43,582 nucleotides of DNA, taken from positions 1 to 43,582 of the forward strand of contig NZ_LLYW01000034.1 in assembly GCF_001484195.1 (NCBI RefSeq). Reading direction: 5' to 3'. Of this stretch, positions 9,354 through 40,641 are shown piece after piece. A program made the position numbers and the translations under genes. The notes beneath the pieces are model-generated. The model saw only the letters and a program-made list of their open reading frames with translations, was not told the DNA's origin and searched no databases. Source of the stretch: Thermococcus celericrescens (GTDB lineage: Archaea > Methanobacteriota_B > Thermococci > Thermococcales > Thermococcaceae). Within the stretch, counting starts at the first letter, position 1; every line of letters starts with the position of its first letter.

Positions 9354-9474
9354 CCCATTACTTTTTTCTTTTGAAAGTCTCGCTCTTTAGGGCGGGGACA
9401 GACAACCGCCCAACAGATTCTTAAGCGGGAAAGCAACACTCTTTTAAAACCCAAGAAGGGTACCATACTTTGAG

Positions 9475-10794
9475 ATGAAGCGAACAATAACAGTAAAACT
9501 TCAGCCCTCGAAAGAGCAGGAGAAAGCACTCTTCGAGTTAGCCAATGCAACAGTAGTAATCTGGAACAAGCTTAACTACCAACGACTAAACCAGTTCAAG
9601 GAATTCGGCAAAATAGACTTCCTGGGAACGCAACAAGAGGCATATTACAACTTCAAAAACTGGATTGGGGGATCTACAGTCCAAACGTTAGCGAGAAAGA
9701 ACGCAGAATCTTGGAGAAGTTTCTTCGCCCTCAACAAAAAGAAGAAAAATGGAGAACTGCCCGAATGGTTCAAACCAAAACCACCCGGCTTCATCGGGGA
9801 GAAGAACGGTAAGAAACTATTCATCATCCCAATTAGAAACGACCAGTATAGGATTAATGGAAACACCATCGAAGTTAGACGATTGGGAAAGTTCGGAAGG
9901 CTGAAAATTCAGTTCGGGGGCAGGATTCATCTCAAGGGCAAGCAGGGACGGTTGGAAATAACTTACGATACCGTAAAGCGGAAGTGGTATGCGAGAGTAA
10001 GCTTTACAGTCAGCCAAAAACTCACTAAAAACGGTTGGGTTGGAGTTCCAAGGCAACCATTGGGAAGCCTCTCGGCAGGAATAGACCTCGGAGTGAACAA
10101 CCTGATGGCCGTTTACGTTGAGAACGGCGAAAGCTTCCTCGTGAACGGCAGACCCTTGAAGAGCATCTCTTTTTACTGGCAAAGAAGAATAGCAGATTAC
10201 CAGTCCAAACTCAACAAGTTTGGCTGTGGGAAGAGCCGAAAACTTCAGCGGATACACGAGAAGGCTAAGCTCCAAGCGAGGCACTACATCAACACTGCCG
10301 TGAGGCAGACGGTAGAAAAGCTTTACCGCCTCGGGGTTTCAAGGATTGTAGTTGGCTACCCGAAGGGTATAGCGAGGAACTCCGAGAGGGGTAGAAGGCA
10401 GAATTTCCTTCTCTCTCACGTTTGGCGGTTTAACACGGGGATTCAAAGGCTCAAGGAAGTTGCGGAAGAGTATGGTATTCTGGTTGTGGTTGTTGATGAG
10501 GCTTTTACTTCCCAGCTTTGCCCTCTCTGCGGCCAACGCCACGCTGATGGGAGGATTTTTAGGGGTTTGTTTAAGTGCCGTGGAGAGGGCGTTGTAATGA
10601 ACGCTGATCTTGTGGGAGCTTTCAACATTTTGAGGAAGGTTGTGGAAAAGATAACCCCGAGCCTGCCGGGTTTGACGGCGGGCAGGGGTAACGGGGGGAA
10701 GGCCCTCCCCGAGGGGTCGAAAACCCACTTTTTAGTGGGTTTTAATGAAACCCCTCGAACTTCCCTGTCATCGGCGAGGGTTCCAAAGAGTTAA
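9475..10794 (+). CDS. tnpB: TnpB (OrfB), RuvC-like RNA-guided nuclease homologue
   Basis: This is an intact 439-codon frame with the OrfB N-terminal domain (KRTITVKLQPSKEQEKALF), a beta-barrel middle and a RuvC-like C-terminal half. The first RuvC Asp is D204 (GIDLGVNN) and the last is D378 (NADLVGAFNIL). At the usual second site the motif is VVGYPKGI with Tyr at 295 where many TnpBs have Glu; the nearest acid is E304. The zinc ribbon is incomplete: C349 and C352 (CPLC) and C368, but the fourth Cys is absent (KCRGEG). The last 45 or so codons run through the predicted omega RNA, as is normal. An AT-rich CTTTTAAAA box lies about 35 bases before the ATG. Confidence 0.9.
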   Translation: MKRTITVKLQPSKEQEKALFELANATVVIWNKLNYQRLNQFKEFGKIDFLGTQQEAYYNFKNWIGGSTVQTLARKNAESWRSFFALNKKKKNGELPEWFKPKPPGFIGEKNGKKLFIIPIRNDQYRINGNTIEVRRLGKFGRLKIQFGGRIHLKGKQGRLEITYDTVKRKWYARVSFTVSQKLTKNGWVGVPRQPLGSLSAGIDLGVNNLMAVYVENGESFLVNGRPLKSISFYWQRRIADYQSKLNKFGCGKSRKLQRIHEKAKLQARHYINTAVRQTVEKLYRLGVSRIVVGYPKGIARNSERGRRQNFLLSHVWRFNTGIQRLKEVAEEYGILVVVVDEAFTSQLCPLCGQRHADGRIFRGLFKCRGEGVVMNADLVGAFNILRKVVEKITPSLPGLTAGRGNGGKALPEGSKTHFLVGFNETPRTSLSSARVPKS

Positions 10795-10822
10795 CCCCTC
10801 GCTAAGGGCGGGAGGAGGTCAG
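10650..10822 (+). ncRNA. Predicted omega RNA (reRNA) at the IS right end
   Basis: The 3' end of tnpB and the DNA to the right end are GC-rich and full of hairpins. TAACCCC at 10652-10658 and AGGGGTAA about 30 bases later enclose an inner CCTGCCG/CGGCGGG stem, and AACCCAC/GTGGGTT forms another hairpin at 10725-10742. The GATAACCCC and AGGGGTAA elements recur at matching places in the other two copies, as expected for the scaffold that TnpB binds. If it is processed at the right end, the guide would be the DNA after 10822, starting ACTGGCGG. Assigned from position and structure only. Confidence 0.55.
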
Positions 10823-28708: not shown

Positions 28709-28847
28709 GCTCCATTACTTTTTTCTTTTGAAAGCCTCGCCCTTTAGGGCGGGGATGCAGTAATCGAAAGACCAGCCTGAAGGCAGGAAAGCACACCATC
28801 AAAAAGCTTTTAAATCAAACCATACTAATGTAGATTGGTGTTGATTA

Positions 28848-29003
28848 ATGGGGGTTATTAATGTCTCCGTTGATGATGAGGTTGAGAAAAAATTCAGAGA
28901 ACTCGTGAGGAAAAAATATGGGAAAATCCGAGGAGCCTTGGGAGTAGCCGTAACTGAAGCCATGAAGCTCTGGATTAAAAAAGTCGAGAGCGAAGAGGAA
29001 TGA
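28848..29003 (+). CDS. Ribbon-helix-helix (CopG-like) DNA-binding protein within the IS
   Basis: A 51-residue frame (MGVINVSVDDEVEKKFRELV ending in WIKKVESEEE) lies between the IS left end and tnpB. The alternating strand VINVSVDDE followed by two helices (EKKFRELVRKKYG; ALGVAVTEAMKLWIKK) is the standard ribbon-helix-helix layout of small dimeric repressors. Its TGA overlaps the tnpB ATG as ATGA, so the genes are coupled. CTTTTAAAT lies about 40 bases upstream as a possible promoter. It may repress the element's own promoter. The element at 9362 lacks this gene. Confidence 0.7.
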   Translation: MGVINVSVDDEVEKKFRELVRKKYGKIRGALGVAVTEAMKLWIKKVESEEE

Positions 29004-30260
29004 AGAGGAGCGTAACGATAAAACTCCAGCCTTCAAAGGCTCAAGAGAAAACCCTCAAAGAGTTAGCCCAAATTAGCTCGAAAGTTTGGAACAAAGTAAA
29101 CTATCTTCGCAGGCAGGAGTTCTCCGAGGAAAAGCCTGTTGATTTCCTAAAAACCGAGGAAATAGTTTATGAAGAGTTTAAGGCCGAGGTAGGCTCGGCA
29201 ACGGTTCAGCAGATAGCAAGAAAGAACGCTGAGGCCTGGCGCTCATTCTTCTCACTCATTAGGAACAAGAGAAACGGGGAACTCCCCAACTGGCTCAAAC
29301 CCAAACCCCCAAACTACATCAAAGAAGGAGGCTTAATAGTCCTCAGAAACGACCAATACAGGATTGAGGGAAATAAGTTAATCCTTAAGGGTCTCGGAAA
29401 GTTCAAAAGACTGGAAGTCCAGTTTAAAGGGAGAATCCACCTCAAGGGCAAACAGGGCCGCTTGGAGATAACTTATGACCCAATAAGGCGGAAGTGGCAT
29501 GCTCACATCAGCTACACGGTAAAGGAGAAACTTCGGGGTGAAGAATGGGTTGAACTCCCAAGACAACCTTTGGGCAGCCTTTCGGCTGGAATAGACTTAG
29601 GAGTAAACAATTTAATGGCTGTCTACCTCGAAAACGGGGAGAGTTTCTTAGTGAATGGGAGACCGCTTAAGAGCATTGATTTTTACTGGCGGAAGAGAAT
29701 AGCGGATTACCAGTCCAAAATCAACAAAAGCGGGGCAAAGAAGAGTAAGAAACTCTCAGGAATGCACGAGAAGGCTAAACTCCAAGCGAGGCACTACATT
29801 AACACGGTGGTAAGGCAAACAGTTGAAAAGCTCTACCAGTTGGGTGTTAGCAGGATTGTGGTCGTTATCCGAAGGGCATTAGCAGGAACTCTGATAAGGG
29901 CAGGAAGCAGAATTTCATTCTCTCCCACGTGTGGCGGTTCAACACGGTAATAAAACGGCTCAAGGAAGTCGCCGAAGAGTATGGTATTAGTGTTATTGTC
30001 GTTGATGAGGCTTTCACGTCTAAGCGTTGTCCCGTCTGCGGGAAGCCTCACGAGGGGCTCGCTTCCTTCGTGGGTTATTTAAGTGTCCCGTGATGGGGCT
30101 TGTCTTCAATTCAGACTTGGTTGGAGCTTTCAATATTTTGAAGAGGGCTGTGGGAACGATAACCCCGAGTCTGAGCGGGCTTTACGCTCAGAGGAGGGGT
30201 AATTGGGGGGAAGACCGTCCCGGAGGGGTCGAAGACCCGCTTTTTAGTGGGTTTGAATGA
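29000..30260 (+). pseudogene. tnpB: tnpB copy broken by two single-base deletions
   Basis: The first 285 codons parallel the intact TnpB at 9475, including GIDLGVNN and the beta barrel. After SRIVV the frame is lost: one G is missing at 29864 (adding it restores VVGYPKGISRNSDKGRKQN). A second G is missing in the run 30054-30057 (restoring HEGARFLRGLFKCP), after which the frame continues through NSDLVGAFNIL to 30260. The restored protein would have Tyr at the usual RuvC-II Glu position, an acidic residue eight or nine positions later, and CPVC plus one Cys of a zinc ribbon, as in the other copy. Both lesions are in G runs, so error cannot be excluded. Confidence 0.85.
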
Positions 30261-30334
30261 GACCCCTCAAACCTCTCCGCCTTTAACGAGGGGTTAAGCC
30301 GAACCCTCGCCCCTCACGGCGGGAAGGAGGTCAG
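30158..30334 (+). ncRNA. Predicted omega RNA (reRNA) of the second IS
   Basis: This covers the GC-rich 3' end of tnpB through the right end. TAACCCC (30160-30166) can pair with GGGGTTA (30290-30296), enclosing a CTGAGCG/CGCTCAG hairpin and an AGACCCGC/AGTGGGTT hairpin. The segment GAGGGGTTAAGCCGAACC is identical in the 382-bp derivative (39200-39217). If it acts like other reRNAs, its guide would be the DNA after 30334, starting ACTCCTATTT. Confidence 0.55.
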
Positions 30335-35201: not shown

Positions 35202-36489
35202 GTGCTCTTCAACGTACCTCACCCAAAAGAACCACCTCAGGGTTGACAAGAAAACCTACAAAATCCTCAGAATACTAACCCACCTATCCAAAAGCCTCTA
35301 CAACCTGACCCTTTACACGGTCAAACAACACTACGAGCTGAACGGCACTTTTCTGCCCTATGCCAAAGCTTATCACCTCGTGAAGGACAGTGAGCCTTAC
35401 AAACTCCTGCCGAGTCAAGCGGCACAGCAAACGATGAAAATCGTGGAGAGGAACTTCCGCTCCTTCTTCCACGTCCTCAACGAGCGGAAAAAAGGAAACT
35501 ACAACCGCCCGGTAAGGCCACCGAAATACCTTCCCAAGGACGGTCAGTTCGTCCTCATCTTCCCCTACCAATCCTTCAGAGTCAAGGGCGACAGGATAAT
35601 CCTGTCCCTCGGCAGGAACTTCGCCAGAAAATACGGGGTTCAGCACCTCGAATTCATCCTCCCGAAGAACGTCAGGAGCCACAGGATAAAGGAAGTCCGC
35701 ATCCTGCCGAGATACAACGCGTTATGGTTCGAAATCGAGTACGTTTACGAGGTCGAACCCGAGAAGAGGGAGCTGGACTACTCAAAATACCTCGCCATCG
35801 ATTTGGGGGTTAACAACTTCGCCACCTGCGTTTCCACCACCGGGACGGCCTTCATTATTGAAGGCCGGGGGTTGAAGAGCTTCAACCGGTGGTGGAACAA
35901 GGAGAGAGCCCGCCTCCAGAGTCAATATGACAAGCAGGGCGTAAAGTTCGGAAAGAAGATGGCTTACCTTTTGAGGAAGGGGAGGAACGTGATTAACGAC
36001 TTTATAAACAAGGCTGTAAGCCACATCGTGAACTACTGCCTCGAAAACGGAATTGGCAACATTGTCATTGGCGAATTGAAGGGGATAAAACAGAACGCTA
36101 ACCTTGGGAGGAAGAACAACCAGAATTTCCAGTACATTCCGTTCGGCCTTTTTAAGCGAAAGTTGAGGGCCAAGTGCGAGCGTTACGGGATTAACTACGT
36201 TGAGGTTGATGAGGCCTACACGAGTAAGGCTGACGCCCTCGCTTTGGAGCCGATTGAGAAAAAGGAGGAATACCTCGGGAGGCGGGTTAGGAGGGGTTTG
36301 TTTCAGTCCTCGACTGGGACTTTAATTAACGCCGACGTGAATGGGGCGTTGAATATTTTGAGGAAGGTAGCCGGCGATTCGCCCGTTCGGGCGATAGCCG
36401 GTAGTGGCCGTGTGAACCGGCCTGTGAGGGTGGGGCTACCTTGGGGTGGTCTCACTCCTCACGAAACCCCGTCCGTAAGGGCGGGGTAG
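35202..36489 (+). pseudogene. tnpB: tnpB of the second IS type, start region apparently broken
   Basis: From 35380 to 36489 the frame is intact and encodes a RuvC-type TnpB with LAIDLGVNNFATC, VIGELKGIKQNANLG (with the usual RuvC-II Glu) and NADVNGALNIL, so all three acidic residues are present. The zinc-ribbon cysteines are missing (SKADALALEPI). The conserved N-terminus is also readable in this frame from about 35215 ([20 protein letters not shown]), yet no ATG, GTG or TTG precedes it in frame before a TAA at 35173. A GTG at 35202 reads VLFN in another frame and would fit with a one- or two-base change near 35214. It may therefore be N-terminally defective, or start at the GTG at 35380. Confidence 0.75.
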
Positions 36490-38030: not shown

Positions 38031-38822
38031 TTATGATTTTTTCTGGCCGCAGATTGTCCTCAAAAACGCCCTCAGGAAGTCAAGCCCGCCCCCCCGGTTG
38101 ACCACTCCCGGATGAACCGAGAGATAGAAGGGAATCCCATCCTCAGATGCTTTCCTGTAGTCATGGAGAGCGACGGACAGTCTGTCATCCACCTGGTTCT
38201 CGCCTATGTACCACGTGTACTCACGGTTCCATATCCTCTGCCGGGTTCCGTTGGGAAGTATGAGCCAGTTGGGCATGACAACGGTGAGGTTGTGCTCCAG
38301 AATGGCCCGGAGGGATTCGTTGTTGAGCGCCCACGCGGGCGGGAGGAAAAGGGTGAGGTTGCCGAACCCGAGGGAATTCATTAGGGCGGTGGCATTGTCA
38401 AGCTTCTCGTTTGCCGTCTCGTAGGAGCAGTTGAACTCGTGGTAGGTGTGCTCGTAGCCGTGGAGCTCCACCCGGTAGCCCCTCCGCTGGAGTTCGTGGA
38501 GATAGTTCACAAAATCGGGGTGGTTCCGGAGGCTCCACTCGTCCCCGTAGTGGGTGGTGTCAAAGACCGGAATCACGAAAAGAACGGTCCTGTTGGAGTA
38601 GTTGTACTCATCGAGAACCGCTATAATCTGCCTGAGGTCATCGAAGTAATACGGGGTAACGTCGTGGACGAGGATTAATGGCCGCTCGTTGAGGGTTTTC
38701 TGTCCCTCTTCGTCCGGTGGGGGAGTGTACGGGGCGTGATGAGTGACGCTCCCGGCTACGACCGTCAGAACGGCCAGGATTATGAGCATGAGGGTGAGGC
38801 GCCTGGTTCCCAAGGGGTTCAC
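38031..38822 (-). CDS. DUF2334-type polysaccharide deacetylase-like protein, membrane-anchored
   Basis: This 263-residue protein has an N-terminal signal anchor (LTLMLIILAVLTVVAGSV) and an extracellular domain of the CE4/DUF2334 type. The metal-binding Asp is in ILVHDVTPYY and the His pair in VELHGYEHTYHEF; ALHDYR and YLSVHPGVV near the end are further active-site segments. Several N-x-S/T sites suggest glycosylation. It probably removes acyl groups from a surface glycan. It starts with GTG at 38822 without a ribosome binding site, 25 or so bases after a TTTTATCATT box, and a mini-IS is inserted directly upstream of that box. Confidence 0.8.
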   Translation of the reverse strand: MNPLGTRRLTLMLIILAVLTVVAGSVTHHAPYTPPPDEEGQKTLNERPLILVHDVTPYYFDDLRQIIAVLDEYNYSNRTVLFVIPVFDTTHYGDEWSLRNHPDFVNYLHELQRRGYRVELHGYEHTYHEFNCSYETANEKLDNATALMNSLGFGNLTLFLPPAWALNNESLRAILEHNLTVVMPNWLILPNGTRQRIWNREYTWYIGENQVDDRLSVALHDYRKASEDGIPFYLSVHPGVVNRGGGLDFLRAFLRTICGQKKS

Positions 38823-38966
38823 CTGATAATGCTCTGCATCTGAATGATAAAAGGTTTACTTTTTTCTTTGAAAGCCTTGCCCTTTAGGGGGGTGCCGTAA
38901 TCGGTAATCCAGCCTTCCAACAGTCGAAACCCCTTTAAACTTCAAGGTGTAGTAAGGTCTCGGAGG

Positions 38967-39074
38967 GGCCACTCAAAGAGGGTTTCAGCGTGTCCTCCCG
39001 TCCTCGGGAGGAAGACGCCGTAAAGCGTCCTTTCAAAAACCGCTTTCGAGCGGTTTGAAACCTGATGAGTGGCC
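38967..39074 (+). ncRNA. Candidate cloverleaf-like structured RNA within the mini-IS
   Basis: GGCCACTCA (38967-38975) pairs perfectly with TGAGTGGCC (39066-39074), extended inward by GGTTTC (38981-38986) with GAAACC (39057-39062). Inside are three separate hairpins: CCTCCCG/CGGGAGG (38994-39011), GACGC/GCGTC (39014-39029) and AACCGCT-TTCG-AGCGGTT (39037-39055). This gives a closed stem with three arms. No protein frame explains it, and the other IS copies lack it. The Pyrococcus HgcC RNA family, which I recall as IS-associated, is a possible relative, but I cannot confirm it. The strand is uncertain. Confidence 0.5.
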
Positions 39075-39080
39075 TTAAGC

Positions 39081-39241
39081 GATAACCCCAATCCGGTCTG
39101 GCGGTAGGGGTAACGGGTTCAAGGCCGAGCCCTCGGGCTGAACCGAAACCGGCGACGGGAGTAGGTGGATGAGAGCCCGAAAACCTCCCCGTCACTGGCG
39201 AGGGGTTAAGCCGAACCTCGGCCAGGCGGAGAGGAGGTCAG
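39081..39241 (+). ncRNA. Predicted solo omega RNA of the mini-IS
   Basis: TAACCCC (39083-39089) and GGGGTTA (39202-39208) are in the same places as in the second IS, around the common AGGGGTAACGGG element and a GGTTCA/TGAACC hairpin with an inner AGCCCTCGGGCT. The scaffold is therefore kept although tnpB is lost. Its guide, if used, would be the DNA after 39241, starting CGTCTCTGGG, which is the end of the MATE gene. Confidence 0.5.
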
Positions 39242-40641
39242 CGTCTCTGGGAGTGCCCCTCCTCTATGATGCGGCTCATCCAGCTCCCGGTCAGGAACCA
39301 GGCGAGAGCAACAACCGCGCCGAGAACGTTGCTCAGGCCCATTCCCAGCCACATTCCGGCGGTGTCCTTCACGAGGATTCCAAGGCCGTAGCTGAGGGGA
39401 AGCCTCAGCCCCCAGAGGCGGAGCATGCTTAGCACCATGCTCTTCTTGGTGTGGCCGGAGCTCTGGAAGACGTTGTTTACCGCCGAGAATATGCCAAAGA
39501 AGGGTAGCGATGCGGAGAAGTACTTGACGACCTTCGCGCTCTCCGCTATTATCGCCGGGTCCTTGATGAAGAAGCTGAATATCTCGACGCGGAAGATGGC
39601 GAAGAGGAGCGTCCCAACGCTCAGGATGGCAAAGTTTATCGCCATTGTCTTCTCAGCTATGGTTTTGGCCCTCTCGTAGAGCTTTGCCCCAACGGTCTGG
39701 CCGACCATCGTACCCATGGCCATGCTTATTCCGTCCGAGAAGGCGAACATGAAGTTGGTGAGCCTGTTGGTTATGGAGTAGGTCGCAAAGGCCACGTCGG
39801 CGTCTCCGAACTGGCCGCCCAGGGTGAAGATTATCCTGGTGAGGATGACGAAGCCGAGGGCGGTGGTGGACGAGCCTATGCTCGAGGGTATGCCTACGCG
39901 GAAGATGCGCTTGTAGAACTCCCAATCCGGCTTCAGGCCCTCTATTGTTAGGTGTATTCCCACCTTTCCCTTGAAGAGCAGGTATCCGCCAACGAGCGAG
40001 CCGAGGCTGTTGGAGAACATCGTGGCTACGGCAGCACCGACGACTCCAAGCTCCGGAAACGGCCCCCAGCCGAATATTAGGAAGGGGTCTAGGACCAAGT
40101 TAAGAAGCACGGTGGCTATGTTTATCTTGACCGGTGTTTTGGTGTCGCCTATAGCCCTCAGGAGGAAGTTGAAGGCGAAGAGTGTGAAGGCGAAGGGTAT
40201 TCCAGCGAAGATGACGCGGGTGTAGTTGAGTGCGTAGGGATAGACGGTATCGCTCACGTTCATGAACTCGAGGAGATACGGGGCGGAGATGACGCCGAAT
40301 ATCCCAACTCCAATCGCGAAGAGCATCATGAGGGAGTAGAGTGCTCCCGCCGCGCGGTTGGCCTTGTCGTACTCTCTGGCCCCGACGTACTGGCTGACGA
40401 AGGCGAAGCCGGCGGTTGCAAACCCCATTCCTATGGCCATGAAAAACCATACCAGCGGCCACGCCGTTCCCGGGGCGGCAAGCTCCTCCCTTCCAAGCTT
40501 GCCCAGCCAGTATGTGTCGGTGAGGTTGTACAGAACCTGAACGAGCTGGTTTACGATTAGAGGATAGGCTAGCACGATGAGAGTCTTGGCTATGGGTCCG
40601 CTGATAATCTGCTCTCGCATTGCCTCCACTTCACGCCTCAT
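39238..40641 (-). CDS. MATE-family multidrug efflux transporter
   Basis: This is a 467-residue antiporter with twelve predicted helices in two homologous halves. Motifs include LVQVLYNLTDTYWLGKLGRE in helix 1-2, LLRAIGDTKTPVKINIATVL, and GIPSSIGSSTTALGFVI. It is a paralogue of the frameshifted gene at 36514-37997 along its whole length. The ATG at 40641 lies 23 bases after TTTTATA, so the mRNA may be leaderless. The final codons CGC TGA are formed partly by the right end of the mini-IS. Confidence 0.93.
   Translation of the reverse strand: MRREVEAMREQIISGPIAKTLIVLAYPLIVNQLVQVLYNLTDTYWLGKLGREELAAPGTAWPLVWFFMAIGMGFATAGFAFVSQYVGAREYDKANRAAGALYSLMMLFAIGVGIFGVISAPYLLEFMNVSDTVYPYALNYTRVIFAGIPFAFTLFAFNFLLRAIGDTKTPVKINIATVLLNLVLDPFLIFGWGPFPELGVVGAAVATMFSNSLGSLVGGYLLFKGKVGIHLTIEGLKPDWEFYKRIFRVGIPSSIGSSTTALGFVILTRIIFTLGGQFGDADVAFATYSITNRLTNFMFAFSDGISMAMGTMVGQTVGAKLYERAKTIAEKTMAINFAILSVGTLLFAIFRVEIFSFFIKDPAIIAESAKVVKYFSASLPFFGIFSAVNNVFQSSGHTKKSMVLSMLRLWGLRLPLSYGLGILVKDTAGMWLGMGLSNVLGAVVALAWFLTGSWMSRIIEEGHSQRR

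Follow-up and report, generated by a model that had tools for sequence, protein, structure and literature searches.

IS605 elements move as single-stranded DNA, and the palindromes at their ends are essential. Non-autonomous or stand-alone omega-RNA elements, which carry a guide scaffold without a nuclease gene, have been discussed for bacterial TnpB and IscB. The PATEs of haloarchaea are short, protein-free elements with near-terminal palindromes and are more numerous than transposons, as has been reported (PMC3119063). HgcC4 of Thermococcus kodakarensis is transcribed and lies outside transposase genes, and the TATA element of promoters in this species precedes the transcription start by a median of 23 bp (PMC4247193).

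The window analyzed here, a 43,582-nucleotide stretch of Thermococcus celericrescens DNA, contains a complete tnpB-less element of the IS200/IS605 type (Table 1). The coordinates given in a preliminary description of the locus, 38860-39241, proved exact: the TTTAC left flank stops at 38859, the right end ...GAGGAGGTCAG stops at 39241, and both ends agree with the empty sites of relatives. When the genus was searched with the two flanks joined, the uninterrupted site was recovered from six Thermococcus genomes at 85-88% identity, and in all six it reads ...AAAGTTTAC followed directly by TGT..., i.e., TTTAC/TGT. The insertion was therefore precise and without target duplication, and the left flanks of most copies are the short 5' target motif TTAC, TTTAC or TGAC. 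The element has no transposase gene and shares its ends with autonomous copies, as is found in PATEs and other non-autonomous IS200/IS605 elements. Features of a classical MITE are absent, since the ends (TTTTTTC... and ...GGTCAG) differ and form no terminal inverted repeats, and no target duplication occurs at the empty site. The MATE-family transporter gene on the minus strand (39238-40641) obtains its stop codon (TGA in CTGACC) from the right end of the element (39238-39241), which places the insertion at the very 3' end of that gene. The predicted guide segment corresponds to this gene end on the opposite strand, and the homologous sequence lies directly 3' of TTTAC at the empty site of the relatives.

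Table 1. Features of the tnpB-less element, in window coordinates
Feature	Position	Strand	Basis or remark
Whole non-autonomous IS200/IS605-type (PATE-like) element	38860..39241	+	382 bp; ends, empty sites, 17 own-genome copies
Left end (LE), near-terminal palindrome GCCTTGCCCTTTAGGGGGGTGC	38860..38920	+	matches LE of own-genome tnpB elements
BRE/TATA promoter-like motif CGAAAcccCTTTAAA	38925..38939	+	position-conserved TTTTAAA match
Inverted repeat GGTCTC-GGA-GGGGCC	38956..38970	+	spans predicted transcription start, about 38962
5' RNA domain (model R1): closing stem P1 and hairpins H1-H3	38962..39081	+	cmsearch 129.6 bits, window copy being part of the model seed
P1 5' arm (partner 39066-39076)	38965..38975	+	two-sided changes in 9/10 P1 pairs
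H1 hairpin TCCTCCCG/CGGGAGGA, 8 bp	38993..39012	+	two-sided changes in 6/7 pairs
H2 hairpin GACGC(Y-GNNA-R)GCGTC, 5 bp	39014..39029	+	most conserved element
H3 hairpin AAACCGCT/AGCGGTTT, 8 bp	39037..39056	+	two-sided changes in 4/5 pairs
P1 3' arm	39066..39076	+	fold and covariation
3' RNA domain (model R2): omega-RNA scaffold core	39082..39185	+	105.3 bits; covariation
Loop-E-like/GNRA hairpin ACC-GAAA-CCG-GCGA-CGG-GAGTA-GGT	39142..39166	+	specific to tnpB-less omega-RNAs
Right end (RE), imperfect palindrome and GAGGAGGTCAG terminus	39186..39241	+	common to tnpB elements (query 312-387)
Predicted guide segment CGTCTCTGGGAGTGCCCCTC	39242..39261	+	predicted from the known IS605 omega-RNA layout

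The genome of the host contains 17 near-full-length copies, the others being 70-88% identical to 38860-39241, and decayed copies besides. The inner segment is present in every near-full-length copy, and tnpB in none. Element bodies that are 95-99% identical (up to 99.4%) occur at sites with unrelated flanks, and the family has been mobile in the past. The window copy and L005 represent a shortened form, while most copies have an extra AACCC...GGGTT hairpin. The supposition that the element is non-autonomous and has tnpB-bearing relatives was borne out: the element has no reading frame, and the genome has tnpB copies that share its ends, including two in the window (about 9362-10822 and 28719-30334). 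In the second of these, the left end and the frame-disrupted tnpB have between them a small ORF (MGVINVSVDDEVEKKFRELVRKKYGK..., 28850-29003), whose product is similar to short proteins of the ribbon-helix-helix type; it was not seen in the 9362-10822 element. Three TnpA fragments were found, all at contig ends, where the assembly splits the whole TnpA gene. Two of them (C21 and C58) follow the same left end, which is matched by query positions 1-61, and the third (C36) is followed by TnpB and then by the same right end. An autonomous partner therefore exists and is broken by the assembly.

The inner segment folds into the closing stem and three hairpins that had been described from the sequence, with an energy of -60.9 kcal/mol (z = -5.85 against 200 dinucleotide shuffles). 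The arms of the closing stem in the window copy are GGGGCCACTCA/TGAGTGGCCTT. When own-genome copies were folded singly, z values ranged from -2.3 to -6.7, and P1, H1, H2 and H3 were recovered in most of them. With a plain MAFFT alignment as input, RNAalifold obtained a poor consensus, since H1 and H3 differ between copies by replacement and not by mutation, and this alignment was superseded by per-copy folds and a model-guided alignment of 96 copies (92 distinct), which was cross-checked without the model by single-copy folds and arm counts. In this alignment, 93.1% of the cells are paired compared with 81.1% after shuffling, and the covariation score is 0.386 compared with 0.177 for shuffled and at most 0.104 for slid alignments; the shuffle control keeps the relatedness of the copies, which affects neither the slid control nor the arm count made without an alignment. 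Compensatory change was the test proposed at the outset for a functional RNA, and it is strong: two-sided changes affect 22 of the 33 pairs (381 cells), including nine of the ten pairs of P1. H2 has 97.6% of its cells paired, its inner pair being CG in 51 copies and UA in 33. For H1, 26 distinct 5' arm strings were counted, each with its complement present (74 of 81 copies), while a 5-bp uninterrupted hairpin appeared in 204 of 830 shuffled sequences.

The fold, previously undescribed, has been kept by compensating mutations in more than a hundred Thermococcales relatives, and the inner segment is therefore under selection as an RNA. It has no Rfam family: the region 38600-39500 gave no match to the inner segment even at E <= 10. 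The cloverleaf-like appearance does not extend to a tRNA, as neither ARAGORN nor the Rfam tRNA model found a match. A hammerhead-like core (CTGATGA in the window copy) was rejected, as it is not conserved among copies. The HgcC family (RF00062), which had been put forward for comparison, does not match the window copy even at E <= 10; HgcC and sot0042 (RF02656) match only the omega-RNA/right-end region in sibling copies, and do so under the gathering scores (HgcC: 35.7 bits for L018 and 28.3 bits for L006, gathering score 50), and HgcC was discarded as an identity for the inner segment.

The 3' domain is an omega-RNA scaffold. A covariance model (R2) built solely from tnpB-less copies retrieves tnpB-linked omega-RNAs at E values of 3.5e-14 to 2.5e-6, including those at 10651 (2.6e-10) and 30159 (2.5e-6) of the window, and the scaffolds are therefore homologous. 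The domain ends at the right end of the IS, as expected of an omega-RNA of TnpB, and its covariation is far above that of shuffled and slid controls. Selection therefore acts at the RNA level on both domains. Two of the three scaffold motifs listed in the preliminary description, GATAACCCC and AGGGGTAA, are present in the window copy and conserved in the family, whereas GGGGTTAAGCC lies where the right end varies between copies and is not universal. The right end and its GAGGAGGTCAG terminus are kept in most copies.

The two domains are coupled. Of 94 genus copies, at least 86 pass from R1 directly into ATAACCCC, and in other genera R2 follows R1 within a few bases in 18 of 20 copies. The inner segment, at first taken for an added RNA, is not a stray insert but the 5' domain of a probable promoter-driven transcript, joined to the omega-RNA. 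Within the 3' domain, tnpB-less copies have a loop-E-like/GNRA hairpin (ACC-GAAA-NNN-GNRA-NNN-GAGUA-GGU) at a position that is occupied by a plain hairpin in tnpB copies. All three inner-stem pairs of the loop-E-like/GNRA hairpin show two-sided changes. The motif is absent from the 25 own-genome TnpB loci, except for a neighbouring MITE copy caught in L027, and in a single R1 copy (L121) a hairpin of the tnpB type takes its place. TnpB ORFs proposed by a regex search to lie beside loop-E-type omega-RNAs were rejected, the ORFs being a transporter and the site a ribosomal-protein leader.

A BRE/TATA-like motif, CGAAAcccTTTTAAA, precedes the RNA start. The best 7-mer matches TTTTAAA at 6/7 or more positions in 77 of 92 distinct copies, compared with 7 of 96 shuffled upstream sequences. 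Among these 77 scorable copies, 65 have it 29-31 bp ahead of the RNA start. With the TATA spacing of T. kodakarensis, the start is predicted at about 38962, which in full copies would be the GAAGAGGCC/GGAGGGGCC position. The RNA is probably driven by this internal promoter. The inverted repeat at the predicted start, which also occurs as GGCCTC-GRA-GAGGCC, is paired in 89.3% of cells compared with 30-56% in slid controls, and the variants GGTCTC/GAGACC and GACTCT/AGAGTC maintain the pairing. Its right half is also the 5' arm of P1, so that the upstream segment and the two P1 arms covary; the repeat is a possible operator or alternative pairing.

Relatives of the 3' domain appear among transcripts that have long been known. 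The HgcC and sot0042 matches to this domain link the archaeal HgcC RNAs to IS605 omega-RNAs. In genome G011, which we take to be T. kodakarensis, R2 matches 1474378-1474477, where a 5'-truncated copy with a damaged R1 remnant (L225) lies inside a hypothetical gene. From gene spacing, together with order, position and HgcC match, we infer that this locus is the transcribed HgcC4 (PMC4247193). HgcC4 starts at a host gene promoter, and it therefore supports the transcription of a relative but not of the internal promoter. A second HgcC match in G011 (L226, about 1630080-1630135) is a fusion of left and right ends of roughly 50 bp without a core, just after a gene, and is probably the published HgcC5 (PMC4247193).

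The R1 model, built from 11 own-genome copies, gave 18 matches in the own genome and matches in 26 of 61 genomes of the genus. The proposed search for homologues across the Thermococcales gave copies in 48 of 94 genomes and five of six genera, and no match was obtained in the 21 other genomes of the phylum that were searched. The number of R1 copies rises with that of TnpB (Spearman 0.64, 94 genomes).

The reading that we favour, at a probability of about 0.55, is that a non-autonomous IS200/IS605 element makes its own two-domain non-coding RNA, is moved by TnpA and is served by TnpB in trans. We infer the steps that follow, namely transcription of this copy, TnpA action in trans, TnpB loading and cleavage, and also what the 5' domain does. 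An autonomous relative with matching ends would supply the TnpA that moves the element to a TTAC-type site, and the internal promoter would start an RNA at about 38962. This RNA would fold into the new 5' domain, a closed multi-branch structure, followed by the omega-RNA scaffold, and its 3' end would pass the right end into host sequence that serves as the guide. TnpB made elsewhere in the genome would then bind the RNA and cut the vacated TTTAC site, and recombination after the cut would restore the element. The 5' domain would most likely substitute for the body of the tnpB mRNA, insulating and protecting the 5' end of the free-standing omega-RNA and fixing its fold at 80-100 °C.

Candidate nucleases are abundant in the own genome, with 45 TnpB matches, about 40 of IS605 type and a few of IS607 type, several of which share the left and right ends of the element. 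Where the canonical RuvC-II glutamate motif would be expected, resident TnpBs have GYPKG(I), as in the gene at 9475-10794 of the window and in some 20 further frames (own-genome loci L024-L046 and L246, GYPKGI). Many of them keep VDEAFTSxxC, i.e., ExxxxxxC, the alternative site of this glutamate in Fanzors and the TnpBs related to them, which makes nuclease activity plausible. A third TnpB-like gene of the window (35380-36489) is of another type, with a canonical GELKGI and without zinc-finger cysteines at the usual place. As first suggested, the element may borrow the TnpB of its tnpB-bearing relatives; the loop-E-like hairpin is unseen beside any tnpB here, and the tnpB-less omega-RNAs may therefore not fit the resident TnpB. 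Also against the favoured reading, 27 of the 48 genomes with R1 have no recognisable TnpA; two have no TnpB, both being incomplete assemblies, and in a few complete ones the TnpB matches are weak only and probably of IS607 type. In the own genome, the weaker TnpB-like matches near three MITEs belong to IS607-type pairs of a serine-recombinase-like TnpA with TnpB, which we regard as neighbours unrelated to the element. Three such pairs (G000 contigs C15, C35 and C26; L239, L240 and L241) are found no more than about 3 kb from MITE copies, which is more often than a rough estimate predicts for random placement.

The 3' domain also occurs without the left end or R1 in the 5' UTR of host genes: rpl10e/uL16 in five genomes (L229, L230, L231, L232 and L233), rpl1 in two (L063 and L067) and gdhA, encoding glutamate dehydrogenase, in one (L234). 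In these leader copies, from several Thermococcus genomes, stem C stays paired despite changes between species. The repeated retention ahead of rpl10e, rpl1 and gdhA suggests host use. A broader proposal, which we consider less likely than not, is that the RNAs constitute a Thermococcales-specific family: a non-autonomous transposon would have evolved a dedicated, promoter-driven, two-domain RNA of guide type whose 5' domain and loop-E-like hairpin would recruit a non-TnpB or additional partner, and whose 3' domain would repeatedly have been co-opted as a regulatory leader by genes for ribosomal proteins and metabolism.

The leaders would agree with a regulatory or structural role in the host that is independent of TnpB, the mobile ends being a vehicle only. 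Such a role would account for the persistence of R1 in genomes without a recognisable TnpA (27 of the 48 with R1) and for a few copies that have lost the left end but keep promoter and fold (e.g., L137, L145, L149, L155, L160 and L166). The patchy spread and the copy number that tracks TnpB, however, resemble a mobile element rather than a conserved host gene, and we consider this explanation unlikely.

The same tracking of TnpB copy number could reflect an antagonist or satellite. The RNA would bind TnpB (or TnpA mRNA) in trans and dampen cutting or transposition, letting a parasite of a parasite persist, and a hairpin specific to tnpB-less copies within an otherwise homologous scaffold is consistent with this proposal. 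An antagonist would not be expected to retain the guide-producing right end and its terminus, which most copies do, and its probability appears low.

The single-stranded movement of IS605 and the palindromes at its ends raise another alternative, in which the inner structure acts as single-stranded DNA that aids excision or insertion by TnpA and the RNA is incidental. On the plus strand, however, 207 G-U pairs stand against 61 A-C pairs, a count that the covariance-model alignment may slightly bias toward G-U. This excess is unexpected from strand-neutral DNA pairing and therefore points to an RNA of that sense rather than to DNA, and the fixed distance of the promoter motif and the retention of the fold in copies without the left end also speak against a DNA-only structure, which we regard as highly improbable. 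That the fold is a functionless residue of decaying tnpB, a view to which the overlap of the 3' domain with the region that codes for the 3' end of tnpB in tnpB copies lends something, is given a negligible chance, since the fold of R1 covaries across copies and occurs across genera, and R1 shows no frame open across copies (lengths modulo 3 of 30/33/33), which also disposes of a decayed protein gene as the source of the inner segment.

If the favoured reading, an element-encoded RNA served by TnpB in trans, is true, protein-free IS605 derivatives can evolve promoter-driven guide RNAs and are not just passive, end-only relics. The analysis adds a strongly covarying RNA domain that is missing from Rfam, and the leader copies in rpl10e, rpl1 and gdhA would exemplify the conversion of guide-RNA scaffolds to 5' UTR elements of the host. 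Since genetic tools exist for T. kodakarensis and other hosts can be cultured, the trans programming of TnpB and the role of the 5' domain are directly addressable.

A literature search, with key TnpB papers outside its reach, returned no archaeal tnpB-less element with a guide scaffold. The bacterial stand-alone omega-RNAs of TnpB and IscB share with this element a guide scaffold without a nuclease gene. The 3' domain is homologous to the omega-RNAs of own-genome tnpB copies and in this respect resembles the omega-RNA/reRNA of TnpB (IS200/IS605); unlike the latter, the element RNA is encoded apart from tnpB, lies behind a promoter motif of its own, has an extra 5' domain and carries a loop-E/GNRA-like hairpin in place of the tnpB-type one. 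HgcC4 and HgcC5 of T. kodakarensis likewise lie at related IS sequence outside transposase genes, whereas their loci have neither a complete R1 nor the internal promoter, and the available part of the report does not recognise them as non-autonomous elements (PMC4247193). PATEs share the absence of inverted terminal repeats, the IS605-like near-terminal palindromes and the absence of target duplication, but they are described as end-only or core-deleted, and the accessible portion of that report mentions no promoter, conserved RNA fold or guide scaffold (PMC3119063). The kind of element is therefore already known; what is new is the combination of a promoter, a new RNA domain and an altered scaffold.
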